A stretch of DNA of 33,337 bases, taken from assembly GCA_017454215.1 (NCBI GenBank), contig JAFTDL010000175.1, forward strand, positions 1 through 33,337. The letters are read 5' to 3'. A model generated the notes under the pieces. It had not been told where the DNA came from. It was given only the letters and a program-made list of their open reading frames with translations, and ran no database searches. This document shows, piece by piece, positions 1 through 25,496 of this stretch. The DNA is from Lentisphaeria bacterium. GTDB lineage: Bacteria; Verrucomicrobiota; Lentisphaeria; Victivallales; Victivallaceae. The translations under genes and the position numbers were made by a program. Within the stretch, counting starts at the first letter, position 1; each line of letters opens with the position of its first letter.

Positions 1-15
1 AAGGATGGGGGGCCC

Positions 16-67
16 GGGGGGAAGGGAAATCCTCTTTTCACGCGAAAAGAGGATTTCCCTTCCCCCC
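16..67. repeat. Perfect 24-bp inverted repeat (long hairpin)
   Basis: Arms 16-39 and 44-67 are exact reverse complements around a four-base loop, seen directly. The outer part is six G:C pairs and the inner part is CCTCTTTT/AAAAGAGG. No T-run follows on either strand, so it is not a classic intrinsic terminator, although it could end transcription arriving from outside the window or protect an RNA end. It lies about 60 bases upstream of the cassette promoter. Confidence 0.85.
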
Positions 68-94
68 GGAACCGGCGTTTCGGCTGCCTTTTTT

Positions 95-121
95 GTCGAG
101 AAAAGCATGTTTTTTTTCGAC
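95..121. repeat. Hairpin just upstream of the cassette promoter
   Basis: GTCGA (95-99) pairs with TCGAC (117-121), and the stem continues through AAAA/TTTT for about 10 pairs including one G-T. The right arm carries a run of eight T. On the + strand it could act as a weak terminator insulating the promoter that starts 7 bases later. The function is inferred. Confidence 0.5.
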
Positions 122-127
122 TTTGAC

Positions 128-156
128 TTGACAAAAAACTTTTTCCGTCCTATAGT
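128..156 (+). promoter_or_regulatory. Sigma70-type promoter of the pseudopilin cassette
   Basis: TTGACA (128-133), a 17-base spacer and TATAGT (151-156) form a near-perfect housekeeping promoter. The expected start of transcription is about 163, giving a short leader before the ATG at 191. It should drive the four cassette genes and probably the MFS gene, since no other good promoter was seen between them. Confidence 0.85.
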
Positions 157-190
157 AGGGCATGAGCAGAGACCCCGCGGGGATGACAAC

Positions 191-913
191 ATGATCTTTC
201 AGTGCGATAAAAGTGCGAAACCGGCGGCCCGTCATTTTTTGACGGGAGCCCGTCATTTGCCCTCGAACCGCCGTCGTTTCACCTTGATCGAAATGCTGGT
301 GGTCATCGGCATCGCCGGATTGCTCTTCACCCTCATCGGTCCCGCCTTCAACCGCATGACCCGCGGCAACGACGTCGAAAGCCACGCCTCCGGATTGAAG
401 CTGGGCATGGAGCGCGCCGCTTCCCTCGCCGCCTCTTCCCGCCGTTACGTCGCCGTCATCCTGCCCTACGGGATCAGCACGATGTCCGATCCCGTCTACA
501 AGTATCAGCGCGGCGGTTACCGTCTCGCTTATGTGACTCGGAATGATACCGGAGCTTATGTTTTCGACGGCTGGCTCCCCGACTCCGAATGGCGGAATCC
601 GGGACAGGATGCCTATCTCGTCGAAGTCGTCGAGGGAACTGCGGGGACTCCCAAAAAAGCGAAGGACGGCAGCACCGACAAGATGACAGACAGTATTTTC
701 CCTCAGGCCATTGAGGGGAGCAACTTTTTGAACGATATCGGAAGCGTCCCCTCCGGCTCCTGCAAAGGCATCGTCTTTTCTCCCTACGGTGACGCGTCCG
801 TGGCGTCGTCGGATCCGGAATTGAAGTTTTATGTCACTGGAACGAATTTTTACGACCGTGTCGTCATACGGCTCAACGCCCTGAGCGGAAAAGTGGAGTT
901 CGTCGACTCATGA
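191..913 (+). CDS. Pseudopilin, Verru_Chthon cassette protein D-like
   Basis: This 240-residue protein (from the ATG at 191) has a type IV prepilin-like N-terminus. FTLIEMLVV is followed by a hydrophobic stretch at about residues 30-50, then a GspH-like region in which SGLKLGMERAASLAASSRR resembles the 'aggregate, then long helix' region of minor pseudopilins. The residue before the mature Phe is Arg, not the usual Gly. The chosen ATG has GGGGA at 179-183. An in-frame TTG at 257 with GGGAG at 244-248 would give a more typical 7-residue leader and is a serious alternative. It is the first gene of a four-gene cassette and overlaps the next start. By family comparison it matches the D member (GspH-like) of the Verru_Chthon cassette; that identity is inferred from pattern and gene order. 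Its role is probably as an envelope or pseudopilus subunit. Confidence 0.8.
   Translation: MIFQCDKSAKPAARHFLTGARHLPSNRRRFTLIEMLVVIGIAGLLFTLIGPAFNRMTRGNDVESHASGLKLGMERAASLAASSRRYVAVILPYGISTMSDPVYKYQRGGYRLAYVTRNDTGAYVFDGWLPDSEWRNPGQDAYLVEVVEGTAGTPKKAKDGSTDKMTDSIFPQAIEGSNFLNDIGSVPSGSCKGIVFSPYGDASVASSDPELKFYVTGTNFYDRVVIRLNALSGKVEFVDS
227..258 (+). promoter_or_regulatory. Alternative hairpin / direct repeat before the prepilin motif
   Basis: CCCGTCA (228-234), TGACGGG (240-246) and CCCGTCA again (249-255) form a three-arm element. The middle arm can pair with either flank, although the right-hand pairing leaves a very tight loop. An 11-base direct repeat, GCCCGTCATTT, sits at 227-237 and 248-258. 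The middle arm overlaps GGGAG (244-248), the possible ribosome binding site of the alternative TTG start at 257. If that TTG is used, the hairpin would control access to it. Confidence 0.45.
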
Positions 914-1617
914 AGCGTTTCAGGTTCAACATGGTCGAGATCGCGTTGGCCATCGCTGTGATCTCCATCGGTCTCTCCGCGGTGCTGGTCCTCTTCCCCG
1001 TGGGCATCAACGCCACCCGCGCCGCCATGGATGAGAATTCCTACAGTGATGCCGCAGAGTACGTCACACGTTATATTCGCGGACAGTTTCTGGGCGTGTG
1101 GCGGAGTACTCCGACGCAATCCTCATTTTCCACTCCTCCCGGCTTTTTCGACACGGAATACAAAGAAGATCCAAGCGAGGACGGCCTCAAGTGGAAGTCT
1201 TCGGGCGAGACCAATTTCGACAAACTTTACAAAGCCACCAATCTCGGAGCGGGCGTCTATAAATTCGTTGAAAGAGGCTATAACGGGGAGGAGATTTTCT
1301 CCGCCGTGGTCAAGGTGTGGATGCCGGCCAATGATCTGACGGACCCTGCGTCAAACGCCTCTTCCGCCTGTCCGCTTTACATCCCCCATACGACCGACCC
1401 GACCAATCCAAATAAACCCAAACGGGTGACGGGAACTGACTCCGCAGAAACCATGAGTATCCCGAACGGTTCTGGCGGGACCGTGAATTTCGGCAGTTTT
1501 GCCCAGTCGGTCCTTGTGGAGATCTCCTGGCCTGCCGATGCCCCCGATGCGGACCGGACGAACAGGCGGGTTTTCCGTGTCGATGTTTACAACCCCTATT
1601 ACGGGATAGCCCCCTGA
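910..1617 (+). CDS. Pseudopilin, Verru_Chthon cassette protein B-like
   Basis: A 235-residue pseudopilin whose ATG overlaps the TGA of the previous gene by four bases, so translation is probably coupled. The N-terminus is MKRFRFNMVEIALAIAVIS, with Phe as mature residue 1 and Glu as residue 5, and again Arg rather than Gly before the cleavage point. A hydrophobic helix is followed by VLFPVGINATRAAMDEN. The 'L-x-PVG-x-N' pattern just after the helix is characteristic of cassette protein B as I recall the family. The C-terminal half includes VLVEISWPADAPD and RRVFRVDVYN, which look like beta strands of a pilin globular domain. No enzymatic motif is seen. It probably works as a minor pseudopilin with its three neighbours. 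Confidence 0.78.
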   Translation: MKRFRFNMVEIALAIAVISIGLSAVLVLFPVGINATRAAMDENSYSDAAEYVTRYIRGQFLGVWRSTPTQSSFSTPPGFFDTEYKEDPSEDGLKWKSSGETNFDKLYKATNLGAGVYKFVERGYNGEEIFSAVVKVWMPANDLTDPASNASSACPLYIPHTTDPTNPNKPKRVTGTDSAETMSIPNGSGGTVNFGSFAQSVLVEISWPADAPDADRTNRRVFRVDVYNPYYGIAP

Positions 1618-1632
1618 TGACGGAGAAGTGAC

Positions 1633-2415
1633 GTGAAAAAACTTCGAAAATATGCATTCACTCTCGTTGAAATTCTCGTCGCCATGGGAGTTTTCAGCAT
1701 TCTGCTGACCCTGATGGTGCAGTTTTTCGCCAGCGCCCGCACCCTGTGGACCGCCAACGAAAAGCGCACCGCGGTCTACGCCGACGCCTCCATCGCCATG
1801 AACCTCATGGCAACTCTGCTTCAAACGACTTTCTATACCGAGGGCGGGACGCCGTTCCAGATTTCCGGCGCGCCTTCTTCCCGGCCCGGTTCCGGGTGGG
1901 ATTCCCGGCTCATGTTCGTCGGCAATACAACGATGAAACTCTCCGACAGCGGCACGGTCCGCTATCTGCGTTTTCAGCGCGGCCCCACTGCCGGAACCGA
2001 CGACAATGTTCTTCAGCTGCGGATCTTCTGCGACACCGACACCGATTTCGCCCAGTGTTTCCAGCCTTTCGGCACGACACCCGCGCCTTTGGACGGAACT
2101 GAAGCCGGTGCGAGATCGTGCATCAACAATTTCCTCGACACCAGAGCGACCGACACGGCTCACCTGAAGCCGATCCTGCGCAATGTCACGGGATTGAAAT
2201 TCACACCGCTGGACCATGCCGGAAACGTTCTGACAACTCCGACGGTGATTCCTCCCGCCGGGATAGAGATAGAGCTCTCGCTGATGCCCGATGAGGCCGC
2301 GGCCAGGGACTGGGCGGCCATGGCCGCCGGAACGGCCAAAGACGATTTCCGGACTAAAAACGAGTACACCTTCCGCAGAACGGTGTGGCTCGGCGACAGG
2401 ACGTTCAACCAATGA
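1633..2415 (+). CDS. Pseudopilin, Verru_Chthon cassette protein C-like
   Basis: A 260-residue pseudopilin starting at GTG 1633 with GGAGAAG at 1622-1628. The N-terminus MKKLRKYAFTLVEILVAMG has mature Phe1 and Glu5, with Ala at position -1. After the hydrophobic helix comes SARTLWTANEKRTAVYADA and MNLMATLLQTTFY, a helical region like that of GspJ/PilW minor pseudopilins and of cassette protein C. The remainder (about residues 60-260) is an extracytoplasmic globular domain without recognised motifs; a late LKFTPLDHAGN segment resembles the end of GspJ-like domains. Its TGA overlaps the next ATG as ATGA. GspJ/PilW-like is the general call; the cassette name is inferred from order and pattern. 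Confidence 0.78.
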   Translation: MKKLRKYAFTLVEILVAMGVFSILLTLMVQFFASARTLWTANEKRTAVYADASIAMNLMATLLQTTFYTEGGTPFQISGAPSSRPGSGWDSRLMFVGNTTMKLSDSGTVRYLRFQRGPTAGTDDNVLQLRIFCDTDTDFAQCFQPFGTTPAPLDGTEAGARSCINNFLDTRATDTAHLKPILRNVTGLKFTPLDHAGNVLTTPTVIPPAGIEIELSLMPDEAAARDWAAMAAGTAKDDFRTKNEYTFRRTVWLGDRTFNQ

Positions 2416-5400
2416 AAAAAGTTCGCACATCTTCGTATGAAAGCGGCGTGGCGCTGATCTTCGCCCTCGGTCTGCTCACTTTGCTCTCCGTTCTGGGCGT
2501 CGCCTTCGTCACCAATTCGCTTACCGCCCAGAAGATCGCCGCCAATGTCGGTTCCCGCGACGAGGCGCGTCTGCTCATGGATTCCGCCGTCAACCGCGTC
2601 ATGATCAGTCTTATGGCCGTGCTGCGGCAGGATAAAAGTACTTCGGATTACTCCATCATCTACAGCACCAATGACATCAATGGCCGCGGCGCCGCGTTCA
2701 GAACAAGAGACCAGCTTGACGATGTCGATAACTCCAAATTGAACATCACTGTTCCCGGCCAGCCGAAATACGACGGCAGCAAAAGCAAGGCTTCCTGGGT
2801 ATATATTCGCGACAACGCCGGAAACATCACCGGGCGCATGGCCTATCAGGTGCTTCCCACAGGCACTTCCAGCATGAGCCTCGATCAGGTGCTCAAAGGC
2901 ATCTACAATCCCGTCTCCGGCGCTCCTGCCGCCGCGGGATCCCCCGCCGCGTGGAACAGACGCATCGGTTTCGACATCAGGGAGTTCAATATCGGCCAAG
3001 CTTACAATGCCCCCGCCGCCTTTACCCAAGAATGGAAATTCGGTTCCGGCCCCGGATACGACGACCTTCCCGGGGATGACAGTGTCGATATCGTTGCCTC
3101 CTTCGACAATTTCTTCGAGGGCAATCCGTTCAAAAAGATCATCGGCGACACGGACGAGAAAAAGGTGTGGCTCCGCCGCTGGTTCTCCGAATCGAAAAAC
3201 GCCTCTCCCGAAGCCTATTGTTACGCCGGAAGCGCCGCAACGAAAATGGAAGACGCTTCCATGTACCACCGCTTCAATCTGGGGCCCCTCTCGGGCACGG
3301 TCGCCGATGCGTGGTATTCCCGTTTCAAGGGGTTCGATAAAAAATCAGATGCAGAGAAGGAAAATTTGAAAAACAGTGAGGATATCGTCAACGAACTTTT
3401 CAAGAAAAGCGATGTCTTTTACCCCGAGGACACGGCGGCGCCTCAGGGCATCGGTCTGCCTTATCTGACGAGGATCTGCAAGGACAAGGGCAGTTTCGAA
3501 AAAATCGAGGACCGCCGCCGTCAGATCGCCGCCAATCTCAACGACTACTGCGACAGCGATTCCATCCCCACCAGCGATGTTGCAGCGGACAAGTGGTTTC
3601 CCAATACTTGGACGGATGGGGATAAACCCAAATATACAGGCAACGAAAAAACGCCTTATATCAACGAACTGGCCCTTGAGTTGAAGTTCGACGTGCAGGT
3701 CCAAAAGACGTCCAATTCCGGCGGGGAGGCGGTCCTGCAGACGGCGCCGAAGATCACGCCGAAGCTGCTGGTCGAGCTCGTCGACATCTACGGCGGCGCG
3801 AACGCGGGAGATTACAAGGCTGTTTCGTGGATCAACAACATCGCCTATACCGTCAGGATAACGAAGGCGACCGGTTCTGTGCTCTTTACCGACGGCACGA
3901 CCGGTTCTTTTACCGATGCAGCGGTGACTTCGCCCGGAACTTTGACTTCGCGCCGGTACTCGCTGGGGGAACATGCGACAGCCGCCGAGGCCGCGCCCGC
4001 GAGTTTTTCTTCCGGGTACGCCGTCGCAGCGATCCCCTACGCGCAGGAAAACAACAGTGCTCTGCTGCCCGATAACTTCCTGCTGACGAAGGAAAATATC
4101 AAAACCGCAATGGGCGGTTCGAGTAAAACGATCGCCAGCATCTCCGTGGCCTCCGTAGAACTGGAGATCGCCAAGGTCAGTTTTGACCTGGAGGCCGTTT
4201 GTCTCAAGCACAACGACGGTCATGGAGTCGATTTCGTCACGGGGCCGGGGACGATCGAACCGCCTGTCGCCGATGATTCGATCACCTTCAGAGTCAGGAT
4301 GCACGGCATCAATGCCGGTCCCGCTTCCAACGCATGGAATTACTTTTACATCACCGGCATGGAGGTCCGTGACCCGCGGCAGAACCTTAATTTCAGCAAA
4401 AGCACGACGACCCGCGATTTCAAAGCCGACGCCAGCGACTGGAAATGCGACCCCAAGGTAGAAAGAGGCAGCGGAACTTTCGATGCCGGGACAATGACGG
4501 TCAACGCCGAAAGCAGCACATTCACCTATACCGGCAAGGTCAACAGTTGCTCTCATCCTAACGCACCGTTTTCCGCCGACGACAAGTTCAGTGCCGCTGC
4601 CGGAGCAGGAGAGGCCGGTGTCGATTATGATAAGGAGAAAGTTGACGATCCCGCATGGCTGGGCGCCGCTTCCAATCAGCACATTTCCACCGCCTATATC
4701 CGCAACGCGCCCATGCAGAGTTTGTGGGAGCTGGGCGCCATCCACCGCGCCTCCGCCTGGGAGACCATCAATATCAAGCGCGCGGTCGTTCCCTCGGGTC
4801 CCTCACAGCGCAGGATCGATCTCTCGGAGAATAAAACAGGCACCCTTTCCGATAACGGCACGGCTTATGCCGACGGCGACGCGGTCATTCTCGATCAGGT
4901 CAAGCTCACCGGAGCCGCCTATACTTCCGGAAAACTCGATGTCAACATGCTTCTGACGACTCCCGCCCCCGCCGGATATACCACCGATTGGGATAAAAAT
5001 ATCGTCAAGGCTCTGTTCTGCGGCATTCGGTACGGTCAGCAGATCGGCGATATCTATCCGACCAACCCCGCCGAGACCGGGACCGTCATCGCCTGGGACG
5101 ACGTCACCGACTCCGTGATCACCCGCGCCAGAACCGTCCCCGGCGGGACTGTTTCTCCCAACTCCGACAAGTATATTTCCCGTGCCGACTTCATCGAAGG
5201 CTCCACCGATCCGGGAAGCGGTGACGCCCGCCGCACCATCGCCAACGGCTTCGGACTTGTCAGCGGCTGGGGGAACCTTTCCGACGCCCAGCAGGAGGAG
5301 ATCATCGGCAAGACCGCCAATCTCCTCACCGCCGGAGCCACCGCCCCCACCACCATTCAGGTCGTCGTCATCGTGCAGACCATCAGATCCATCGCTCCGC

Positions 5401-5699
5401 CCTCCAGCGGAAATATCACCGTCGTCAGGCAGGCCTACAAGAAGAACGGCAATGCCGTCACCAATTCCGAGTCCGTCGCCGATTCCGGTTTGACCAAGGC
5501 TTCCGGGGACAGTCCGGCCATTCAGATCAGCGCCGGAGACCGGGAGTTCAAGGTGTTCTCCTTCCCCGACTCCGACGGCAAGACCAATTACGTCTATTTC
5601 GACGAAATCACCAGCGAGCTCCGCGCTCTCGTTACCATAAAGCGTGTTGTTTGCGCCGGCGAAGTCCGCTTCCAGCTCTACAATGTGCGCTTCCTGTAG
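2412..5699 (+). CDS. Large PilX/GspK-like protein, Verru_Chthon cassette protein A-like
   Basis: A 1095-residue protein starting at ATG 2412, which overlaps the preceding stop as ATGA; an upstream in-frame start at 2385 would lie inside the previous gene and is not preferred. The N-terminus (about 7-35) is ESGVALIFALGLLTLLSVLG, a PilX/GspK-type signal anchor in which mature residue 5 is not Glu. SRDEARLLMDSAVNRVM follows, the helix typical of this class. The remaining thousand residues are Ala/Gly/Asp-rich and contain no motif I recognise. Length, N-terminus and position after three pseudopilins agree with cassette protein A of Verrucomicrobia (usually more than 1000 residues). GspK caps the pseudopilus tip in type II secretion, so a tip or surface role is a reasonable inference, not a demonstrated one. 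Confidence 0.78.
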   Translation: MKKVRTSSYESGVALIFALGLLTLLSVLGVAFVTNSLTAQKIAANVGSRDEARLLMDSAVNRVMISLMAVLRQDKSTSDYSIIYSTNDINGRGAAFRTRDQLDDVDNSKLNITVPGQPKYDGSKSKASWVYIRDNAGNITGRMAYQVLPTGTSSMSLDQVLKGIYNPVSGAPAAAGSPAAWNRRIGFDIREFNIGQAYNAPAAFTQEWKFGSGPGYDDLPGDDSVDIVASFDNFFEGNPFKKIIGDTDEKKVWLRRWFSESKNASPEAYCYAGSAATKMEDASMYHRFNLGPLSGTVADAWYSRFKGFDKKSDAEKENLKNSEDIVNELFKKSDVFYPEDTAAPQGIGLPYLTRICKDKGSFEKIEDRRRQIAANLNDYCDSDSIPTSDVAADKWFPNTWTDGDKPKYTGNEKTPYINELALELKFDVQVQKTSNSGGEAVLQTAPKITPKLLVELVDIYGGANAGDYKAVSWINNIAYTVRITKATGSVLFTDGTTGSFTDAAVTSPGTLTSRRYSLGEHATAAEAAPASFSSGYAVAAIPYAQENNSALLPDNFLLTKENIKTAMGGSSKTIASISVASVELEIAKVSFDLEAVCLKHNDGHGVDFVTGPGTIEPPVADDSITFRVRMHGINAGPASNAWNYFYITGMEVRDPRQNLNFSKSTTTRDFKADASDWKCDPKVERGSGTFDAGTMTVNAESSTFTYTGKVNSCSHPNAPFSADDKFSAAAGAGEAGVDYDKEKVDDPAWLGAASNQHISTAYIRNAPMQSLWELGAIHRASAWETINIKRAVVPSGPSQRRIDLSENKTGTLSDNGTAYADGDAVILDQVKLTGAAYTSGKLDVNMLLTTPAPAGYTTDWDKNIVKALFCGIRYGQQIGDIYPTNPAETGTVIAWDDVTDSVITRARTVPGGTVSPNSDKYISRADFIEGSTDPGSGDARRTIANGFGLVSGWGNLSDAQQEEIIGKTANLLTAGATAPTTIQVVVIVQTIRSIAPPSSGNITVVRQAYKKNGNAVTNSESVADSGLTKASGDSPAIQISAGDREFKVFSFPDSDGKTNYVYFDEITSELRALVTIKRVVCAGEVRFQLYNVRFL

Positions 5700-5702
5700 A
5701 TC

Positions 5703-6908
5703 ATGAACCCTTACGCCGACTGGAAGAAAAATCTCACCGTCATCTGGATGTCGCAGTTCCTCGCCATGATCGGCTTCGGGTGCTGCATGCCCTTCATCCC
5801 CCTGCTGCTGCGCGAAAATCTTCACGTCGACAGCGAAAAACTCCGCGGCCTCTACGTCTCGCTCTACTACCTCGCGGGCATGTCCAGTCTCTGCATCGCC
5901 AATGTCATCTGGGGCATCCTCGCCGACCGCTTCGGACGCAAACTCATGCTTTTGCGCGCCAGCTACGCCGCCGCTCTCTTCTATCCCCTCCTTTCACTGG
6001 CCCCCAACTTCGGCGTGCTGGTGCTCATCCGCTTCGTCTGCTCCTTCTTCTCCGGCACCGTCTGCCCCGCCCAGACCCTCCTCGTCAGCACCACCCCGCC
6101 CGAAAAACACGGATTCGTCCTCGGCGTCATCAGCACCTCCATCTGGAGCGGCAACATGCTCGGCTACCTCGCCGGAGGCCTCATCGTCCACTACGCCGGC
6201 TTCAAGACCGCCTTCTTCACCTGCGGCGCCATCTACCTTCTGAGCGGCGCCCTTGTCCATATTTTCGTCAAAGAGAATTTCGAGTACACGCCCGAGAAAA
6301 AACAGAAGGTCCGCTTCTCCTTCAAATACCTTTCCTCCCCGGCGGTCTTCTGGCTTCTGGTCATGTTCCTCATCATGGGCGTCGCCCGCCGCATCGAACA
6401 GCCCTTCATCGCCATGCAGGTCGAACTCGTCCACGGCACTGACGGCGCCGCCTTCTATACCGGGATCATCTCCGCCGCCGCCGCCCTCGGCGGCGTCCTC
6501 TCCGGCACCGTCATCGGCTGGATCTGCGACCGCTTCACACCCGAAAAGCTCATCGCCCCCATCCTCATTTCCAGCGCCGCATTCACCCTCGGTCAGGCCT
6601 TTTCGGTCAACATCGAAATGCTCACCGTTTCGCGCTTTCTCACCTATTTCGCCGCCGGAGGTCTCCAGCCCGTCCTTCAGGTCATTCTCGCCCGGAACAC
6701 CTCGCCCGAACTCCGCGGCACCTTCTTCGGCTGGTCCGGCGGCATCAACACCGCCGGAGGCATCATCTGCTCCTTCATCAGCGGCGGTCTCGTCCTCTGG
6801 TCCGGCGTCCGCAGCATTTTCGTCGCCGCCGCCCTCTTTCTCCTCCTCATCTTCCTCCCTTACTATCTTTTCTCGCGAAAAGAAAGCGGGCAGACAAAAG
6901 CGGTGTGA
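5703..6908 (+). CDS. MFS transporter (DHA1-like, 12 TM)
   Basis: A 401-residue inner-membrane protein with about 12 hydrophobic segments. MFS motif A is clear between TM2 and TM3 as GILADRFGRKLML (about residues 74-86), and the symmetric loop GWICDRFTPEKL lies between TM8 and TM9. A longer hydrophilic loop with VKENFEYTPEKKQKVRF (about 187-203) separates the two halves. The overall pattern is that of drug/proton antiporters or sugar exporters of the DHA1 group; the substrate cannot be read from sequence. The start lies 3 bases after the stop of the large cassette protein, with no good ribosome binding site, which suggests co-transcription and coupled translation. Whether it serves the cassette functionally is unknown. 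Confidence 0.88.
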   Translation: MNPYADWKKNLTVIWMSQFLAMIGFGCCMPFIPLLLRENLHVDSEKLRGLYVSLYYLAGMSSLCIANVIWGILADRFGRKLMLLRASYAAALFYPLLSLAPNFGVLVLIRFVCSFFSGTVCPAQTLLVSTTPPEKHGFVLGVISTSIWSGNMLGYLAGGLIVHYAGFKTAFFTCGAIYLLSGALVHIFVKENFEYTPEKKQKVRFSFKYLSSPAVFWLLVMFLIMGVARRIEQPFIAMQVELVHGTDGAAFYTGIISAAAALGGVLSGTVIGWICDRFTPEKLIAPILISSAAFTLGQAFSVNIEMLTVSRFLTYFAAGGLQPVLQVILARNTSPELRGTFFGWSGGINTAGGIICSFISGGLVLWSGVRSIFVAAALFLLLIFLPYYLFSRKESGQTKAV

Positions 6909-6920
6909 ACGCTTTTTTTT
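6896..6920 (+). terminator. Intrinsic terminator after the MFS gene
   Basis: AAAAGCG (6896-6902) and CGCTTTT (6910-6916) form a 7-bp stem that merges into a run of eight T (6913-6920). It overlaps the stop codon of the MFS gene. The stem is short, so termination may be partial. More hairpins follow before the convergent gene. Confidence 0.6.
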
Positions 6921-6994
6921 CAAAACGCTCCGTTTCCGGTAAAGGGGATAGGCGCGGGGCGTGTCGCTGAGGAAAACATGCCGGCGTTTCGGCC

Positions 6995-7022
6995 CTGCGC
7001 GCCCCCGACGGGCAGCGCGCAG
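6995..7022. repeat. GC-rich hairpin between convergent genes
   Basis: CTGCGCG (6995-7001) and CGCGCAG (7016-7022) are perfect arms, with a further CCC/GGG pairing inside. It lies between the MFS gene and the convergent phosphatase gene and could help separate the two transcripts. No T-run is adjacent. Confidence 0.5.
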
Positions 7023-7032
7023 TTGCCCCGGA

Positions 7033-7054
7033 GCCGACGTTTCGGCCGGTTTTT
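7033..7054 (+). terminator. Second + strand terminator candidate
   Basis: GCCGA (7033-7037), loop CGTT, TCGGC (7042-7046), then CGG and five T (7050-7054). It is a compact stem-loop plus T-run pointing rightwards, just beyond the end of the convergent phosphatase gene, and would stop read-through from the cassette/MFS operon. Confidence 0.55.
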
Positions 7055-7055
7055 A

Positions 7056-7844
7056 TCAGCGGCGGAGGTTCCGGAAGTCGTGAAAATACGCGAGCATTTT
7101 CTCATGGATCCTGCCGTTGGTACAGAGGAATCCGTCGAAGGGAAAGTTGTCTTTGCCCTTGAGATCGGTGATGACCGCGCCGGCTTCGCGGGCGATGACG
7201 ATCCCGGCGGCCACGTCGTAGGGGGCAAGACAGAGTTCCCAGTAGCCGTCCGCCTGACCGCGGGCAACGTGACAGCAGTCCAGGGCGGCGGAACCGTACC
7301 TGCGGATGCCCGACAGTCCCGGGGCGATGCGGCTGAAGAATTTGAGATTGTTCTCCTCTTTCCACTGGGCGCGCAGACAGGCGAAGCCGGTGGCGAGGAT
7401 GCACTCGGCAAGATCTTCGCGGCGGGAGACTTCCATGCGGACGCCGTTGACGAAACTGCCTTTGCCCTCCTCCGCATAGAACAGGGTGTCGAGCGCGGGC
7501 TGGCAGATCACTCCCGCGACGGGTCTGCCGTTGTGCACGAGGCCGATGGATACGCACCAGTACGCCTGCCCGTGGACGAACGAGGCGGTGCCGTCGATGG
7601 GGTCGATGACGAAGCAGTATTCCCGTTCCGCATGGCTTCTGCCGGACTCCTCGCCGTAAATGCCGTACTCGGGAAAGTGCTGCCGTAATTCGCCGGTGAT
7701 GAAGTCCTCGACTTTGCGGTCGGTGTCGGTCACCAGATCGCGGATATTGCTTTTTGAGTGGATGTTGGCATCCGTGAGGCTGAACTGGTCCGCATAGGCC
7801 ATGGCTCCAGCCCGGCGGGCCAGTGTTTTGAGAAATTCGATCAT
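7056..7844 (-). CDS. Inositol-monophosphatase family phosphatase
   Basis: A 262-residue cytoplasmic enzyme of normal family length. All Mg-binding motifs are present: GEES (residues 64-67), DPIDGT (81-86) and the C-terminal WELCLAPYDVAAG, whose Asp210 is the third metal ligand. VTDTD (38-42) and RRYGSAALD (181-189) also fit the fold. The family hydrolyses small phosphate esters such as inositol-1-phosphate, histidinol phosphate or 3'-phosphoadenosine derivatives; the exact substrate cannot be settled. AAAGGA lies 8-9 bases upstream of the ATG. It is the last gene of the - strand unit that begins with the pseudopilin at 14299, 107 bases after its neighbour. That placement could mean a role in sugar phosphate handling, or mere adjacency. 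Confidence 0.9.
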   Translation of the reverse strand: MIEFLKTLARRAGAMAYADQFSLTDANIHSKSNIRDLVTDTDRKVEDFITGELRQHFPEYGIYGEESGRSHAEREYCFVIDPIDGTASFVHGQAYWCVSIGLVHNGRPVAGVICQPALDTLFYAEEGKGSFVNGVRMEVSRREDLAECILATGFACLRAQWKEENNLKFFSRIAPGLSGIRRYGSAALDCCHVARGQADGYWELCLAPYDVAAGIVIAREAGAVITDLKGKDNFPFDGFLCTNGRIHEKMLAYFHDFRNLRR

Positions 7845-7897
7845 GTTTTCATCCTTTCAAACCCGACTGTTCTTCCGGTCCCGGGGCCGCCGCACGC

Positions 7898-7936
7898 CGC
7901 CCCGCTCTCTTTTCCGCCCCCAACGCCCCGCTCTCT
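7898..7936. repeat. 13-base direct repeat in an intergenic gap
   Basis: CGCCCCGCTCTCT occurs at 7898-7910 and again at 7924-7936, between the phosphatase and the small secreted protein. On the - strand this is a repeated purine-rich block upstream of the phosphatase start. Its function is unknown; it may be only low-complexity sequence. Confidence 0.5.
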
Positions 7937-7951
7937 CTGAAAGATGGAGGG

Positions 7952-8707
7952 TCAGCGGAGCGGTTCGACCGTGAGGACGGCCTCGCGTTCGATGAGGGTC
8001 TCGCCCTTTTCCCAGCGGAACTGCCACAGACCGCCGTCGAGGGAACAGGGAAAAAGCGCGTCTTTTTTCCGCAGGGCGGCGATCACCCGCGGCGCCCGCA
8101 GGGAAACGCGGCATGTTTTCCCTTCGAGAACGATCCTGTCGGGCGCGTCCCAGTTGCGGAAACGGTCGTCCGGGCGCAGAACGAAAGGTTCTTTGCGTTC
8201 TTTGCACACGACGGTGTCGAAGGGCTGTCGGAAATACCAAGACAGGGCGAAACAGCGGTTGACGGTGCAGACGGCGTCCGGCTTTTTGCGGAAAGTGTAT
8301 TTCATGAGAACGGCGGGCGACCTGCGGTCGAATTCATAGCGGCAGAGCGCCTCCACGCCGTCGAGCCGGGTGATGAGCGGCGAAATGTTGCGCCAGAAAC
8401 AGCCGCGGCGTTCGATGACAAGAGCGTTTTCGTCGTTCCGGAGGATCTTCGTTTCGGCCCAGCGCTCCTCCGCGAGGCGGTAGGTTTTGCCGTCCGCTCC
8501 CGTCGCCGCGGCGTCGAAGAGGATGCATCCCGGCGCGGTCCCGTCGCGGAAGGTGAATTCTCCCGGAAAGAGACTGCCTTCGAGGAAGGTGCAGGTCCAG
8601 AAGTCCGTCGTCACGGTGAAATTGCCGGAGATCTTGTCGAAGCGGCCCATCTCCCCGCCGCGCAGCAGGGCGGCGAAACAGCACAGAAGCAGCAGAAATC
8701 TTTTCAT
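7952..8707 (-). CDS. Small secreted protein, unknown function
   Basis: 251 residues with a clear export signal (MKRFLLLLCCFAALLRGGE, cut near residue 18). The rest is beta-rich with many aromatics and evenly spaced Arg/Glu, including WAETKILRNDENALVIERRG and ALCRYEFDRRSPAVLMKY. It resembles the beta-sandwich accessory domains attached to glycoside hydrolases, but I recognise no family. The ATG follows directly on the TAG of the large upstream gene, with GGAGGG about 8 bases before it, so the two are co-transcribed and probably coupled. Acting on or binding the same glycan as the 1605-residue neighbour is the simplest guess. Confidence 0.75.
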   Translation of the reverse strand: MKRFLLLLCCFAALLRGGEMGRFDKISGNFTVTTDFWTCTFLEGSLFPGEFTFRDGTAPGCILFDAAATGADGKTYRLAEERWAETKILRNDENALVIERRGCFWRNISPLITRLDGVEALCRYEFDRRSPAVLMKYTFRKKPDAVCTVNRCFALSWYFRQPFDTVVCKERKEPFVLRPDDRFRNWDAPDRIVLEGKTCRVSLRAPRVIAALRKKDALFPCSLDGGLWQFRWEKGETLIEREAVLTVEPLR

Positions 8708-11700
8708 CTATTTGCCCTCCGGGATATAGCGCCAGCTGCGGAAATTGCAGACCGAACCGCCGTTGAGTTTGAAGAAAATTTTGTTCCTGCCGCCCAGTGT
8801 CCGCAGGGCCGGGATGCGGAATTTGCGGTAATCGCCGAAACTGTCGGTGAGCACGTTCTTGCGGTCGAGGATCAATCTGCCCGCAAGTTCGCCCGAATCC
8901 GGATGGCCGGTCAGGATCTCGATGCTGCCGCCGCCGCTGTAACTCGGCGCGGCGATCTCGACTTCGAAACAGCCTTTCGACGGTTTGCCGAAATCCCCCG
9001 TTCCGGCAAAGAATACGCCGAAGAAGACGTTGTCCAGCACCATGAGGTCGCGGTTGACCCGCGCTCCCAGCACGAGGGGGGACGCCGCGGCGTTCTGCCG
9101 ACGGGTCGCGTCGAAGGGGGGCGTGTCCCCGAACTCGACCTTGTCCACGCCGAAGGGATCCTTTTCGGTGAAGGTCCTGCGGATGACGGCAAAGGAGGAG
9201 TCGATCCGTTTCACCAGTTCCGCATCGGGCGTTTTGCCGTACAGCCGCAATTCGCAGCCGTAAGGACCGATGGAGAAGGCGGTTTCGCTTTCCGTTCCTT
9301 CGCCGGAGCGCCAGACTTTGCGCAGATCGCGCGGCGGAGAGGCGAGTCTGCCCGACCGGGGCCCGCCGGTGGTGTTGACCAGAAGAACGATCGTGTTTCC
9401 GTCAAGCTCCCACGCGCCGGAGACGACGGGCAGTGTCCCCACGTCCTTCGTGCCGTGGTTTCCCCAGCGGGTATAGATCTTTTTTCCCAGCCCGGCGAGG
9501 ACGGGTGGGCGCTTCATGAGCCCGCGGTCGAAAAAGTCGATCGCGCCGGTCCGCAGGTGGCAGAGACGCTTGAGATAGCGCCGGAAGACGCCCCGGGCGG
9601 GCGAAGTGATCTCCACGATGCCGAAGTGACCGATCTGTTCCCCCTGGACCAGCTGGACGGCGGCCTTCACGAACGCGGCGGCCGGATCGGCCCCCACGGG
9701 ATCGCGGCTGGTGTACTGGGTGCGTCCCGAATAGACCATGGCGTGCAGCGGCACCTGATGGTCGTGCATCCAGCGCCACGGACAGAGGGCGTCGACCAGC
9801 CCCACGCAGTGTTCGGAGTTGTCCTCGGTGGACATGACCGCGTCGATGCCGTTTTTTCTCCAGTACTCGCGGATGGGCAGAAAGGCTTTGCGGTGGCCGT
9901 TGACGTTCCAGCTCTCGGGATCGTTGATGCCGTGCCCGTGGCCGGGGACCTGACAGAGAATGGGCCGGGCGGCGCCCAGCTGGTCGATGAAACACCCCGA
10001 GATCCCCTGGGCAACCAGCCGCGTCACCATGCCGAACATGGCCTGCCGGTAAATGTCCGACGCCGGACACAGCACGGCGCAGGGCACGCCGTAGGGCTCC
10101 AGCTGGACCTTGCCGTCGGCCGTCTTCACGGCCGCGGCCGTGCCCAGAGTCCTGTAGAGGGTGCTTTCTCCGCGGCGGTCGCGGGTGGACCACAGGCGGC
10201 CGTTGGTGTAGCTCAGCACGCGGATGCCGTATTTTTTCATGAGTTTCGCGTAGGCGATGTATTCGGCATTGGCCCGGGGAATGGGGCAGAGATGATGTCC
10301 CGGTCCCCGTTCCCACCAGTACCAGTGCTGGATGGTGTAGCCCAGTCCGAGGTATTCCCGGAGCGTGATCGCCTGCTCAGGATCGGGGATGTGAAAGACC
10401 AGCAGCGCCAGCGTGTTTCTGCGGAACCACTCCGGCGTGTCGGTGTCGGGCAGCGTTTTGCGCCACCAGAGCGCGCCGGTGCGCGCAAGTTCGCTCCGGT
10501 AAATGAGGCCCGCGTCGTACCAGTCGCCGCTGAAAAGTTCGACGACGGCGCTGCACTTCGAAGAGAAGGAGTTCTTTTTGTTCCGTGCCGCAAAGGAGAC
10601 CGGATAGTCGATCTTCACCTCGGTCCCGTCGGAGTCGGCGCGGAAGGAATAATACTTCACCCGCCCCAACGGATCCGCGGGCGAAAAGTAAACCCCGCCG
10701 CGGCCGTCGTAGACGGCGCCGAACTGCATAGAGGTGAGCATGCGCGGATAAATCCCGTCATAGGCGATCCTGCGGGATGCCGCGTCGGGGTAGAGCAGGC
10801 CGCCCGCCTCGGGCACGACCAGCGCGGCCCCCTTGTCCAGCGGCGCGATGTTGAGCGCGGGCAGCGTGACCTTTTCGAGCACCGTCGCGTAGGTTTCGGA
10901 GGTTGCATCGAGCGAAAACTCCAGCCGCGTTCCGTCGAAACGCCAGCGCGACCGGCCGCTGACGGCGGGAAAAGCGCGGCGCTTGTGGGAAACGGCGAAC
11001 TCGAGCACGCCGTTTTTTTCGACGGGAGGCGAGAGAAAAACGTTTTCGAGGTCGTTCATGCCCAGAACCGCTTTTTCATTGCCGCGGATAAAGTGGAGCC
11101 TGAAGAAAACATTGTTCCAGTTGAACAGTTCCCGGCCGTTTTTCCTGTCGTATAAAGAAAGAATCCTGACCGCGCCGGGGCTGGTCAGGATGGTCAGGAC
11201 TTTTTCGCTTCCCGCGGAAAAAAGAAATTTTCCGGGGGAGTCGGCCACCCGGTCGAAGTCCGAAAAGCCGCTTTTCGCCAGATTCATCAGGGCCGAACGC
11301 CGCGCGGGATCGGGATCGGCGGCGATCTTTTCGAGCCGCGCTTCCGTCACCCGGGCGGACTTCTGAAAGGCGGGCGTCACGACGCCTCCGAAGGTCAGCA
11401 CCCGGTCGCGGATCTCCTTTTCGGTCAGAACGCGGTTGAAACAGCCGCCGCCGTAGATCTTTCCGCCGAAATTCCACGCGCTTCCGAAACGGGAGGCGGC
11501 GCCGAACTCCCACGCGCCCGGGGGAGGAACGAGCTTCACATTGGGCAGTTTCTGCACGGGCAGCGCCTTGCCGTCGACGAACAGCTGGATCTCGGTCCAT
11601 ATCTCGCCCTGATCCACGGCTTCGTGGTAGCGGCACGACATGGCCGCGTGATGGACTTTGGCCGTCTTTTCGGTGAAGACCGCGGGCGTCAGGAAGCCTT

Positions 11701-13525
11701 TCTGATACTTCTTGCCGTCGAAGTAGAGAAAATAGAAGCTGCGCTGATACCGGGCCAGCACGAAGGAGCCGGGCGCATAGAAGAAGGCGTCGTAAGAGAG
11801 ATCCACGGCGCTGTTTCCTTCCGGCTTCCCGGTCTCGAAAACGAGGTCGAGGGTGAAGCCCCTGCGCAGATCGGGTCCGGCGACGCCGCTCACGGCGACC
11901 GCATTGGTCTTGCCGTCCATCAGCAGAGCGCCGTCGGCGAAGGCGGTCTTGCCCGAAACGGCGGCCGAAGCCGATCCGCGGGCGAACTCGCCCGATTTGA
12001 GATCGGCGGCGCTGAAGACGAAGTTCTCCGCCGAAACATACTCTTTTACCGCGCTCCACTTGGGATTTTGGGCAAGATACTTCAATATTTCGCCTGTGAG
12101 CCGGACGTGGCCCGCCGCGTTGAGATGGACTTCATCGCCCGGCTTGAAAAATTTTCTCCGGCCGGGGACCGCCGCAAGCGGCGCGTAGACGTCGAGAAAC
12201 TCCAGACCGAACTCATCGGCCAGAGCCTTCCAGATTTTGCAGAACTCCCGCATGTTTTCGGTCTTTCCGAAACGGAAGACGTTTTTGGCCCCGGCCGCCG
12301 TGCGGGCGTCGGCTTTTGCCTTGAGAAATCCGTCGTCCAGCGCCAGAGGCGACACGAGGATCGTCCGCGCCCTGGGGTAGAGCGTCCTGATCCGCCGCAG
12401 CACCGAGCGCCCGAGAGTGAGCTGGAGCGCGGGAGGCACGAGGGAGGAAGCGTAGCCGTCTTTGCTCGACGTCATGGTGTCGTTGTGCCCCAGCATGACG
12501 AAAACGAGATCGGGCCTGCACGCGGGAGCGTCTTTGTACGCGTCGGGACGCGGAGCGTACCTGCCGGCAAAGCGGGCGTCGACGCGCCTGAGATGGTCTC
12601 CGGCGACGGCGAAATTCCGGTAGGAAGCCCTGATTTTCGCGGCGTTGAGATAAAAATTCACCTGCGCCGGGGTGTTGCGGCCCCGGTCGAAATCCAGCTC
12701 GCTGTCGCCGAACCAGACCGCGGAAACGCTTTTTCTGCCGATCTTCGCGGCGTCGGCAAGGGCCTGATCGAACTCCTTTTCGGGGACGACGGAGGTCTGG
12801 AACGTGGTCTGCGTCCCGTTGCGGGCAACGGTTATTTCGGCGGATCCGTCGGCCGCAAGACCGATCAGGGCGGCCGGGATCGTGACTTTGCCGTCGGCAT
12901 CGGCAGTGATCCCGCTCTTTTTCGCTCCGCAGAAGACCGTGAAGGCTTTTCCGGGGGCGTTGGTGCGGACGGCGATGTCCGCGGCTCTGCCGCGCATGAC
13001 GGGAATTTCGGGATCGTCGATCTTCACGGCGTCGTCGGCAAGTTTCGTCAGTTTCACGTTGTCGAAGACCAGCCGGGAACCGGCGGGGATCTCGAGGGTG
13101 AGGGCGATCCTGTCGGTAATGGTCTGCGACAGGTCGATCTTCTGCCGGACGCGTTTCGTTCCGTCAGAGAGGGCGATCCTGCCGTGTTCGACGATCCGGG
13201 GTTTCAGCGGGGGCGCGGGAAACACCATGGTCCCCACGGTGACGGAGCCTTTTCCGGAAGCGTCGAAAGCGAGTTCGAAGATCGCGCCGTTCAGATGACG
13301 GTGGGGCAGGACCATTTTGGTGCATCTGCCGAAATTCTGACCGTTCCGGGCCGTCGCTTCGAGGCGCATTTCGCCGTTTTCGCGGGTCAGTTTGCCGTTC
13401 CAGTATTTCGGGGTGTTCCATCCCTCGGCGCTCTTTTCGAAGGAATTCTCGAAGCAGAGCGTTTCCGAGCCGGAAACGGCGGCGGAAAAAACGGCGCAGA
13501 GCACCCACGGCATCAGTCTTTTCAT
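8708..13525 (-). CDS. Secreted multidomain SGNH hydrolase / LamG / glycosidase-like protein
   Basis: About 1605 residues starting at ATG 13525, preceded by GGAGGA. A signal peptide (about 1-19) is followed by a jelly-roll-like region (25-165). An SGNH/GDSL esterase domain (about 265-485) has block I GDSELDF (Ser275), a block II Gly near 309, block III GHND (Asn348) and block V DEVH (Asp464, His467), so the catalytic set is complete. A LamG-type sandwich follows (about 495-700). The C-terminal half resembles the DUF6259 glycosidase-like group: a beta domain, then a TIM-barrel-like stretch with WYWWERGPGHH, GISGCFIDQLG and STEDNSEHC, whose acids are candidate catalytic residues. The protein probably de-esterifies and cleaves a decorated polysaccharide outside the cytoplasm. 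The esterase call is firm; the glycosidase call is moderate. Confidence 0.82.
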   Translation of the reverse strand: MKRLMPWVLCAVFSAAVSGSETLCFENSFEKSAEGWNTPKYWNGKLTRENGEMRLEATARNGQNFGRCTKMVLPHRHLNGAIFELAFDASGKGSVTVGTMVFPAPPLKPRIVEHGRIALSDGTKRVRQKIDLSQTITDRIALTLEIPAGSRLVFDNVKLTKLADDAVKIDDPEIPVMRGRAADIAVRTNAPGKAFTVFCGAKKSGITADADGKVTIPAALIGLAADGSAEITVARNGTQTTFQTSVVPEKEFDQALADAAKIGRKSVSAVWFGDSELDFDRGRNTPAQVNFYLNAAKIRASYRNFAVAGDHLRRVDARFAGRYAPRPDAYKDAPACRPDLVFVMLGHNDTMTSSKDGYASSLVPPALQLTLGRSVLRRIRTLYPRARTILVSPLALDDGFLKAKADARTAAGAKNVFRFGKTENMREFCKIWKALADEFGLEFLDVYAPLAAVPGRRKFFKPGDEVHLNAAGHVRLTGEILKYLAQNPKWSAVKEYVSAENFVFSAADLKSGEFARGSASAAVSGKTAFADGALLMDGKTNAVAVSGVAGPDLRRGFTLDLVFETGKPEGNSAVDLSYDAFFYAPGSFVLARYQRSFYFLYFDGKKYQKGFLTPAVFTEKTAKVHHAAMSCRYHEAVDQGEIWTEIQLFVDGKALPVQKLPNVKLVPPPGAWEFGAASRFGSAWNFGGKIYGGGCFNRVLTEKEIRDRVLTFGGVVTPAFQKSARVTEARLEKIAADPDPARRSALMNLAKSGFSDFDRVADSPGKFLFSAGSEKVLTILTSPGAVRILSLYDRKNGRELFNWNNVFFRLHFIRGNEKAVLGMNDLENVFLSPPVEKNGVLEFAVSHKRRAFPAVSGRSRWRFDGTRLEFSLDATSETYATVLEKVTLPALNIAPLDKGAALVVPEAGGLLYPDAASRRIAYDGIYPRMLTSMQFGAVYDGRGGVYFSPADPLGRVKYYSFRADSDGTEVKIDYPVSFAARNKKNSFSSKCSAVVELFSGDWYDAGLIYRSELARTGALWWRKTLPDTDTPEWFRRNTLALLVFHIPDPEQAITLREYLGLGYTIQHWYWWERGPGHHLCPIPRANAEYIAYAKLMKKYGIRVLSYTNGRLWSTRDRRGESTLYRTLGTAAAVKTADGKVQLEPYGVPCAVLCPASDIYRQAMFGMVTRLVAQGISGCFIDQLGAARPILCQVPGHGHGINDPESWNVNGHRKAFLPIREYWRKNGIDAVMSTEDNSEHCVGLVDALCPWRWMHDHQVPLHAMVYSGRTQYTSRDPVGADPAAAFVKAAVQLVQGEQIGHFGIVEITSPARGVFRRYLKRLCHLRTGAIDFFDRGLMKRPPVLAGLGKKIYTRWGNHGTKDVGTLPVVSGAWELDGNTIVLLVNTTGGPRSGRLASPPRDLRKVWRSGEGTESETAFSIGPYGCELRLYGKTPDAELVKRIDSSFAVIRRTFTEKDPFGVDKVEFGDTPPFDATRRQNAAASPLVLGARVNRDLMVLDNVFFGVFFAGTGDFGKPSKGCFEVEIAAPSYSGGGSIEILTGHPDSGELAGRLILDRKNVLTDSFGDYRKFRIPALRTLGGRNKIFFKLNGGSVCNFRSWRYIPEGK

Positions 13526-13549
13526 CATCTTTCCTCCGTTCGGCAAGGT

Positions 13550-14299
13550 CTACGGCTTGGTAATGGCGCCGTTGCCGTCTATGGAGAAATCGATCATCAT
13601 GGGACAGCCCTTCAGATCACCGGCCGACATGCTGTTCACGTGCCCGTCCCAGAAGGCCACGTTGGCCTTGTCGGAGTGGATGCGCCAGATACCGATATTG
13701 GTGTAAGCCAGAGAACTGACGCTGTACCAGAAGTAATAGGCTTCGGTCTGTTTTCCGGCCGCGGCGATTCCGGAGTCCGCGATCAGGGCGAAGCCGGAGG
13801 GAGACTTCACATCGGTGGGCCGGATCGCCCAGTACCCGGTGCCTGAAACCCGGTTGATCCTGCCGATGCGGTCCAGCCGGGACGCGGCGAACTCGTTGCC
13901 GTTGAGAATGCCCCACAGTCCGTAACTGTTGCGGTTGCCGTTGCCGAAGGGTCCGTTCTGGGGATTCGAGAGGGCGGGCAGCGCCGGACAGCGCGCCGCT
14001 TTGTATCCCACGTAACTCTTGGTCTTGGGAGCCTCACCGGTCAGGATGGCCACCCAGGTCGGTGTGCTGGCGTTGTGGAGGACCCAGCCGCCGTTGTCGC
14101 TCACATACTGCAGCATTCCGGTCATGGTCTGTTTGAGATTCGAAGTGCAGTTGGCCTGTTTGGCTCTGTCCCGCGCCTGCTGCAGCGCGGGCATGAGCAT
14201 CGCGGCCAGTATGGCGATGATGGCGATGACGACCAGGAGCTCGATCAGCGTGAAACGCCGCATGAAAACGCTCCGGACTTTTTCAGTTTCTCTACTCAT
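13550..14299 (-). CDS. H-X9-DG pseudopilin (DUF1559-like)
   Basis: 249 residues from ATG 14299, chosen because GGGAGG lies 7 bases upstream; longer readings extend through the promoter. The leader [15 protein letters not shown] precedes [20 protein letters not shown], with Arg at -1 and Glu at mature position 5. Then comes [22 protein letters not shown], the conserved helix of this group. Near the C-terminus, [12 protein letters not shown] is an exact H-X9-DG motif. These proteins are exported, N-terminally anchored and abundant in PVC bacteria; their function is not established. It heads the unit containing the 1605-residue enzyme, which suggests it displays or assists that enzyme or senses its substrate. 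It has its own promoter. Confidence 0.88.
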
Positions 14300-14347
14300 G
14301 ATATGCCTCCCTGTGATCCGATGGTCTTTCTGACTGCCTTGGGAGAT

Positions 14348-14356
14348 ATTATAGCA
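14348..14356 (-). promoter_or_regulatory. Extended -10 promoter of the second carbohydrate unit
   Basis: On the - strand TGC-TATAAT is a perfect extended -10 element (TATAAT is the complement of 14348-14353). No convincing -35 is present, as is common for extended -10 promoters. Transcription should begin near 14341, about 40 bases before the pseudopilin ATG at 14299. It lies just downstream of a strong terminator, so the two - strand units are separate. Confidence 0.75.
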
Positions 14357-14409
14357 CATTATTCGACAAAAGCATACGGCAATCGGCCAAAAAAATGTCA
14401 TTATCCGCC

Positions 14410-14440
14410 AAAAAAAAGGCGCCGTGACGGACACGGCGCC
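14410..14440 (-). terminator. Strong intrinsic terminator ending the first carbohydrate unit
   Basis: Read on the - strand, GGCGCCGTG, a five-base loop and CACGGCGCC form a perfect 9-bp GC-rich stem (14418-14440) followed by eight T (complement of 14410-14417). It starts 27 bases after the stop of the gene ending at 14468. This is the clearest terminator in the window. Confidence 0.93.
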
Positions 14441-14467
14441 GAAAGGATCCGCCTCCGGAGCGCAAGA

Positions 14468-16096
14468 TCATCTGATGCGGTCGTACGTCGCCAGCAGTTT
14501 GAGGGCCGAGGCGGTGGCGAAACCGCAGTTGATCCAGTCCTGCTCCACGGGACGGGAGAGGTCGCACCACGTGGGGATGCGGCCGTCGGGCCCCTGTATC
14601 CGGGTGACGGCGTCGCCCAGAGCACGGGCCTTGGCAAGATCCATCGGGTTCTTTTCCAGATCGTAGAGGAAGAGATAATACCGGATCATCTTCGCCAGAG
14701 ACGCGTCCACCGGAACGAAACAGCGGTACTGCTCCAGCACCGCGGGCGTCGTCCAGTTGTACCAGCCCCACTTCTTCGTCCGCGTGGCCTCGAGAGGCCG
14801 GAAGCCGGGGATGTGGAATTTGTACATCCACCCCGGCTGCTCCCAGACGACGAACTGATCCTCGGAAAACCGCTGGAGTTCCCGGGCGTATCCCCGCAGT
14901 TCCGGGTCGTCGGGAGTGCGTTTGGCAAGGTAGAAGACGATGTCCGTGCCGTTGTGCTTGGTCAGGTTCTGATAGGGCTTCTGCATCAATTCCACATCCT
15001 CGAACTGTCCCTCCCAGTTGAAGGATCTGAGCATGTTTTTGATGTACGGGATGCCCTTTTCGGCCGCCTTGCGGTACTTGGCGTCGCCCGTGGTCTGCGC
15101 GAGTTTTTCGAGGAAGATCATGACCGACGTGGGAACGGCGTAGTTTTTGCCCGCGGGACTTCCGTCCTTTATCGACAGCGCAAGATGCCACGTGCCGTTG
15201 GGCTGCTGGAGGCGCAGATACTGCTCCCCGATCCTGACGGCGTAATCGAGGTACTGCCGGTCCCCCGTCGCCTTGAAAAGATTGAGCATAGCCGAACCCA
15301 CGCCCGCGGGATAGAGCATCATGATGGTGTTCACGCCCGCGCCGGCTTTGCCGGGATCATTTTCATAGGTGAGCGGCAGGTATTCCAGTTTCTTCCCCGC
15401 GGGGACGGCGTTCTTCATCAGGTGCGCGGCGGAGCCCCGGGCGACGGCAAGGGCGGTCTCCTTCTGCTCGGGGATCATTTCGGCGTGATTGACCATGCCG
15501 TTGATGATGGCCGCGTGCATCTTGCTGGGATAGCAGAAGAGAGAATAGGTGTAGTCCGGCCTGCCCTGAGCCATGTCCTGCACATATTTGAACTTGAAAA
15601 AATACGCGTAGGCCTTGCGGGCGCACTCGGCGTAAGAACAGGTCTTGGGCGGATAACACCCGGTGAAGGGCGCGTTGCGGTAGAAGCTCCGGGTCCCGGA
15701 GACGGCGATCTTTCTGCCGGAGGGATCCAGCGCGTCGACGGTCAGGAACACCGGTCCCGGGGGCAGCTGCGCCCAGACGGGCGAAAGGGCGGCATGGGGG
15801 CTTGACGCCGAAAAACACCGGCGCTCGCCGAAACGGTCCACGGCCGTGAAAAAATAACTGGCGGCCCCGGGGACCTCCTTGAAGTCGAACACCGGCGCAT
15901 AGATGAAGGACAGGGCGTAGGTGTTCCAGAACGCCTGCCCGTTGACGCCTCCCGGACGAACCGGGATCAGACTGTCGGCAATGGCCGACCGGATCATATC
16001 CGCTTTGCTCATGACCGTATCTCCGGACAAATTGAAGACTCCCGCCGCGAAAACCGCCGGAAACAGGGCGGCGCGGGAGATCCGATTTATTTTCAT
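14468..16096 (-). CDS. Secreted protein, possible alpha/alpha-toroid polysaccharide-active enzyme
   Basis: 542 residues with a signal peptide (about 1-25) and AGGAGG about 10 bases before the ATG. The first ~150 residues contain a fibronectin-like sandwich (APVFDFKEVPGAASYFFTAVDRFG) that ends in PSGRKIAVSGTRSFYRN. From about residue 160 on, helix-pair repeats appear, including LDYAVRIGEQYLRLQQPNGTWH, a later KYRKAAEKGIPYIKNML and the final ARALGDAVTRIQGPDGRIPTW. This spacing of 'QQ-x-NGTW'-like turns is typical of alpha/alpha toroids in pectate lyases, unsaturated glucuronyl hydrolases and related enzymes. I cannot name the family or catalytic residues. It is the last gene before the strong terminator and lies 43 bases after the GH28-like gene. 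Confidence 0.72.
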   Translation of the reverse strand: MKINRISRAALFPAVFAAGVFNLSGDTVMSKADMIRSAIADSLIPVRPGGVNGQAFWNTYALSFIYAPVFDFKEVPGAASYFFTAVDRFGERRCFSASSPHAALSPVWAQLPPGPVFLTVDALDPSGRKIAVSGTRSFYRNAPFTGCYPPKTCSYAECARKAYAYFFKFKYVQDMAQGRPDYTYSLFCYPSKMHAAIINGMVNHAEMIPEQKETALAVARGSAAHLMKNAVPAGKKLEYLPLTYENDPGKAGAGVNTIMMLYPAGVGSAMLNLFKATGDRQYLDYAVRIGEQYLRLQQPNGTWHLALSIKDGSPAGKNYAVPTSVMIFLEKLAQTTGDAKYRKAAEKGIPYIKNMLRSFNWEGQFEDVELMQKPYQNLTKHNGTDIVFYLAKRTPDDPELRGYARELQRFSEDQFVVWEQPGWMYKFHIPGFRPLEATRTKKWGWYNWTTPAVLEQYRCFVPVDASLAKMIRYYLFLYDLEKNPMDLAKARALGDAVTRIQGPDGRIPTWCDLSRPVEQDWINCGFATASALKLLATYDRIR

Positions 16097-16139
16097 TTTT
16101 CTGTTCCTCCTGTACGCGCTTGCCGTCTCCGGGGCGCGT

Positions 16140-17426: not shown

Positions 17427-17432
17427 GATGAC

Positions 17433-18377: not shown

Positions 18378-18396
18378 TTTTTCTTCCTTCCGTAAT

Positions 18397-24695: not shown

Positions 24696-24728
24696 TTATT
24701 CCCCCTCGAATTTCAGGAAGCGTGTCCA

Positions 24729-25445: not shown

Positions 25446-25496
25446 ATTTTCCCCCTTTGCTGTCGGAATGTTTCAACCGAACGGTAACATTGTACA

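Follow-up and report, generated by a model that had tools for sequence, protein, structure and literature searches.

Do four linked minor-prepilin genes in a Lentisphaeria genome form one system, and which filament would that system serve? The genes lie in the window, the whole 33,337-nucleotide contig that we analysed (G000:C49). They resemble a cassette type that had so far been no more than a family name, the 'Verru_Chthon cassette', with no characterisation; a full-text search of the literature library used here found no Verru_Chthon paper. A first-pass annotation, made from the sequence alone, had called the locus the same system as Verru_Chthon, outside its described host group and of undescribed function.

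Organization of the cassette

We observed four co-directional genes on the + strand, in the order D-B-C-A, spanning positions 191-5699 of the window (Table 1). The promoter-like site lies 35 bases upstream of D and was the sole such site in positions 1-7200. It is a candidate promoter, as agreement with the consensus does not by itself establish activity. The inverted repeat further upstream is possibly the end of an upstream unit. ATGA-type overlaps, which the first-pass annotation had given for the cassette, were present at D/B (910-913) and C/A (2412-2415) but not at B/C, where the genes are 15 bases apart. D, B and C have prepilin N-termini with Glu5. The N-terminus of A is PilX_N/GspK-like and lacks Glu5, an absence common to GspK and PilX (PMC7541494).

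Table 1 Coordinates of the cassette genes and upstream elements in the window
Feature	Position	Strand	Remarks
D, GspH/FimU-like minor prepilin, Verru_Chthon D relative	191-913	+	240 aa
B, GspI/PilV-like minor prepilin, Verru_Chthon B relative	910-1617	+	235 aa
C, GspJ/PilW-like minor prepilin, Verru_Chthon C relative	1633-2415	+	260 aa, GTG start
A, very large GspK/PilX-like minor prepilin, large beta-rich part	2412-5699	+	1095 aa
Sigma-70-type promoter-like site TTGACA-17-TATAGT, before D	128-156	+	11/12 consensus positions
Long inverted repeat gaagggaaatcctctttt...aaaagaggatttcccttc	21-62	no strand	Read from sequence; upstream of promoter

As annotated, the four-gene cassette contains no ATPase gene of its own. 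An MFS gene (5703-6908) begins 3 bases past the A stop codon, and the annotation had attached this exporter to the system. We rejected it as a cassette component because it adjoins the cassette solely in the nearest relative (1 of 20 relatives).

Conservation and distribution

A neighbourhood survey, proposed as a check in the first-pass annotation, found the complete D-B-C-A set in order in 18 of 20 relatives' loci from the same class. The exceptions were L078, without a detected D, and L083, with A only. Relatives of the four genes in the same order were about 20-75% identical. This recurrence in the same order is not due to chance, and the annotated pseudopilin cassette, with its one promoter-like site, proved to be real. 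Full-length A relatives were also found in other orders of the class. In most of 31 loci sampled elsewhere in the phylum the four genes were seen, and the cassette was often preceded by between one and four additional prepilins. Two loci carried additional sets: L126 has two complete D-B-C-A sets in tandem (1649-15038), and L125 has D-B-C without A followed by a full set (1872-10356).

The A profile matched 136 of 195 sampled genomes and, within the class, 62 of 66 (counted from result rows). A-carrying records include Victivallis vadensis DSM 14823 and Lentisphaeria MAGs from gut, rumen and water. Residues invariant in A were present across 43 sequences. In A of G183:C25 and G061:C16 we observed an in-frame stop, reflecting sequencing errors or decay. 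Within the window's own family, most sampled Lentisphaeria genomes yielded one cassette, and A is strongly conserved. G066 and G078, which are described Verru_Chthon hosts, each gave >20 first-look candidates. The cassette type spans Verrucomicrobiota-Lentisphaerota, and the window's form is a divergent, usually single-copy variant. A position outside the described host group therefore holds in the NCBI sense (Lentisphaerota), but not under GTDB, where the cassette is phylum-wide with A in 136 of the 195 genomes.

Relationship to the Verru_Chthon families

We scored the window proteins and the members of four alignments of relatives (D, n = 32; B, n = 36; C, n = 38; A, n = 43) against 18,950 NCBIfam models. 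The best model for window D, B and C was, respectively, Verru_Chthon D (TIGR02596; 4.6e-8, 33.4 bits, curated cut-off 70), B (TIGR02598; 0.0018, 18.5 bits, curated cut-off 51.4) and C (TIGR02599; 1.1e-7, 31.4 bits, curated cut-off 256.5), through N-terminal matches only. For window A the GspK model (2.9e-5) stood slightly above Verru_Chthon A (TIGR02600; 2.8e-4, 18.9 bits, curated cut-off 332.3), again at the N-terminus only. None of the four window proteins reached the curated cut-off of its model. Since all four scores fall well below the cut-offs, the window cassette is, as judged from sequence, a divergent Verru_Chthon relative outside the four curated families.

The relationship was clearer across the alignments, where each Verru_Chthon model was the most-matched model of its alignment. 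Verru_Chthon D was matched by 32/32 members (gspH by 30/32), B by 26/36 (PilV by 24/36), C by 37/38 (gspJ by 26/38) and A by 29/43 (GspK by 27/43). The HMM search suggested in the first-pass annotation thus returned the expected families but not scores above their cut-offs. The H, I, J and K counterparts that it named were borne out, with gspH, PilV, gspJ and GspK among the most-matched models. Profiles built from the window-type cassette found TIGR02600-passing cassettes, whose four proteins answered one-to-one.

Profile-profile comparison covered most of the length of D (204 columns, E 3e-22, hhalign) and C (222 columns, E 5e-18, hhalign) against their Verru_Chthon counterparts. B aligned over 56 N-terminal columns (E 1e-11, hhalign) and A over 67 columns at the N-terminus (E 6e-10). 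Without its N-terminus, A matched Verru_Chthon A weakly (E 0.0016), on a W.Y...IIGR.AY motif. The two A families are connected through intermediates such as that of L152, which the window-family A profile matched over 10-872 (7e-28) and which also matched TIGR02600 in three stretches (2.6e-15).

The window cassette and Verru_Chthon share the same four protein types in contiguous genes with one-to-one best families, and one true cassette (L095) also has the order D-B-C-A. They differ in that the order of true cassettes varies (A-B-C-D, B-C-A-D or D-B-C-A), that one cassette was found in the window's genome against many in true hosts, and that homology of B and A is clear at the N-terminus only. 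The claim that this is the same system stands on the one-to-one models and reciprocal profiles, but not at the level of the curated cut-offs.

Structure and residues of C and A

The AF2 model of C (pLDDT 86) has a predicted GspJ fold. Its top Foldseek matches were all GspJ/XcpW/EpsJ. It matched GspJ, XcpW and EpsJ, together with TTHA1219, a Thermus pilin, at Z scores of 10.5-12.1 (VIA), compared to 3.9 for the next unrelated chain.

The A model (pLDDT 72.5) combines a single long helix at the N-terminus with an extensive beta-rich middle part. GspK was absent among the Foldseek matches shown for this model; we take the missing match as no result rather than as a structural difference. The middle part matched GH2-type beta-sandwiches weakly (Z about 6), not well enough to name a domain. 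Foldseek matches of A to pore-forming toxins were rejected (TM about 0.05, probability <0.5, rmsd >23). Neither A nor B matched solved structures by sequence. A without its N-terminus did not match T2SS GspK profiles significantly (E 0.33); in that non-significant comparison, the A motif NLxDYCDxDS aligned with DYxDxD of GspK. Gly(-1) was present in 39 of 43 A proteins, in which position +5 was F, Y, L or M and never Glu. With no GspK match from the A model, A is assigned to the K role on its position, its N-terminus and the missing Glu5.

Filament machines in the genome

In the 3.3 Mb genome (84% complete), C186 carries a complete T2SS, whose GspG scores above the cut-off and which has separate H, I, J and K proteins of its own. 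An operon of the Amuc_1101/Amuc_1099/Amuc_1098 type (PilM, Amuc_1099-like protein and secretin) lies on C284, with no minor pilins beside it. PilB and PilC are encoded on C261, and a Tad-like locus, judged by gene order and size, lies on C176. There are two prepilin peptidases and 113 prepilin N-termini, most of which share one motif.

Three of the prepilin genes lie in the window itself (13550-14434, 24729-25445 and 25497-26249), among genes for a GDSL/DUF6259 protein, a GH28 enzyme, a DUF4434 protein and a GntR-LacI-type regulator. The stretch 13550-26249 represents pilin genes within a polysaccharide-degradation locus. Among 25 listed prepilins (those of L248-L267 and the three window genes), we counted Gly(-1) in two, that of L248 and one in L251; the others had R, S, A, C, N, P, Y, F, K or W at -1. 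T2SS GspG and cassette A keep Gly(-1), and it is missing in cassette D, B and C. The prepilin peptidase must be tolerant at this position, cleaving after many different residues.

Co-occurrence and neighbourhood

Amuc-type PilM was present in 134 of the 136 A-carrying genomes, a count that ignores shared ancestry. Across the 195 genomes the association of A with this PilM (134/2/39/20; Fisher P = 4e-10) was stronger than that with any GspG match (132/4/48/11; P = 4e-4), both values ignoring shared ancestry. The 39 genomes with PilM and no A match include genomes of genus g38, likely Akkermansia. In two likely-Akkermansia genomes we observed a K-like protein of ~1,350 residues; as it has no D, B or C neighbours, we set it aside as support.

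At most 20 GspG candidates were scored per genome, so that absences are unsafe in pilin-rich genomes, and we therefore searched for GspD. In six genomes (G014, G022, G034, G040, G061 and G067; 94-98% complete), A and Amuc-type PilM are kept and the T2SS GspD search gave weak secretin matches or none, compared to 860-1500 bits in four control genomes. Presence of the cassette does not require a T2SS, as these six genomes without GspD keep A.

In G142, genes of the Amuc_1101, 1100, 1099 and 1098 families follow within about 2 kb after the cassette. The two were seen to adjoin in G142 only, and not in the window's genome or most others. A small toxin-antitoxin-like gene pair, recognised by inspection, stands between them (G142:C16, L239 3065-3618).

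Proposed role and alternatives

The four linked genes almost certainly encode the tip of a filament resembling a type IV pilus. D-B-C-A would be the H-I-J-K priming and tip minor pilins, most likely of the Amuc_1098-1101-type pilus and not of the T2SS, a reading to which we give a probability of about 0.6. The function is in that respect not wholly undescribed, since H-I-J-K filament priming and capping is known from other bacteria. In Myxococcus, pilus priming is the work of the four minor pilins together with PilY1, which are also located at the tip (PMC7541494).

Like type IVa FimU-PilV-PilW-PilX with PilY1, the cassette follows H-I-J-K logic, B relatives match PilV (24/36 members), and the window's genome encodes a T4P-type PilM, PilB, PilC and secretin. 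Unlike that system, the cassette has no PilY1 gene, and A is far larger than PilX; A may do the job of PilY1. With Akkermansia muciniphila Amuc_1098-Amuc_1102, the window's genome shares PilM, Amuc_1099 and secretin genes of the same type. Such genes adjoin the cassette in G142, whereas in the window's genome the cassette lies outside the operon. For Akkermansia, Amuc_1098-1102 have been proposed as the genes behind its pili-like structures (PMC5332112, PMC4960237).

D, B, C and A would be inserted in the inner membrane and processed by prepilin peptidase. By analogy with the known systems, B, C, A and D would be partners in a single complex, with the Glu5-lacking A in the topmost position. 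Such a complex would start filament growth, and A would then be carried outward on the tip. There its roughly 1,100 residues would offer a surface for binding, in place of PilY1 or in addition to it, and A would serve in adhesion or substrate capture. The machine served by the cassette is most likely the Amuc-type pilus, a PVC-type pilus whose PilM, Amuc_1099-like protein and secretin have their genes on another contig of the genome, as do PilB and PilC.

An alternative is that the cassette forms a T2SS tip, replacing GspH-I-J-K for a special group of secreted enzymes. T2SS loci lie about 2-12 kb from the cassette in four Victivallales genomes (G174, G257, G153 and G089), and most cassette carriers have a T2SS. 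The order of types is the same as in GspH-GspI-GspJ-GspK, D, C and A resemble H, J and K, C has the predicted GspJ fold, and the K-type protein lacks Glu5. However, the cassette stands outside any T2SS operon, A is about three times as large as GspK (330 aa in the same genome), and the T2SS already has its own full set of G-H-I-J-K, so that it is not the likely machine. The six nearly complete genomes that retain the cassette without GspD, and the stronger association with Amuc-type PilM, also argue against it. A dedicated enzyme-secretion tip is thus unlikely, and the cassette is not simply a T2SS-type tip.

The cassette might instead build a short pseudopilus that stands alone, has no dedicated machine and draws on any available PilB/PilC and secretin; A would then act as an adhesin at the surface or as a scaffold for enzymes. 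It is usually unlinked to any machine, and the many copies in the described Verru_Chthon hosts (G066 and G078) fit several exchangeable tips on one machine. The single cassette and strongly conserved A in most genomes of the window's own family are instead what is expected of a dedicated tip, and we regard a stand-alone structure as improbable. That the locus is a remnant without function, or that unrelated prepilins have clustered there by chance, is scarcely credible, as low sequence identity and the in-frame stops in A of G183 and G061, and nothing further, point that way, against intact frames, kept order, invariant A residues in 43 sequences and recurrence throughout the phylum.

A broader reading brings in the other prepilins of these genomes. 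The conserved D-B-C-A tip, with its giant K-type adhesin, might serve up to a hundred or more exchangeable DUF1559-like prepilins, some in polysaccharide-degradation loci, and so form substrate-specific retractile polysaccharide-capture filaments in Lentisphaerota. We offer this as a speculation that is probably wrong.

Significance

The Amuc_1098-1101-type system has been studied in Akkermansia because of Amuc_1100. Our reading proposes the missing minor pilins of a pilus of this type. It gives the Verru_Chthon cassette a concrete, testable role as the H-I-J-K priming and tip complex of a pilus, and it concerns a cassette type that is group-wide in Verrucomicrobiota-Lentisphaerota and not confined to a few species. 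Because the cultured Victivallis vadensis carries a close A relative, the proposed role would be testable there.
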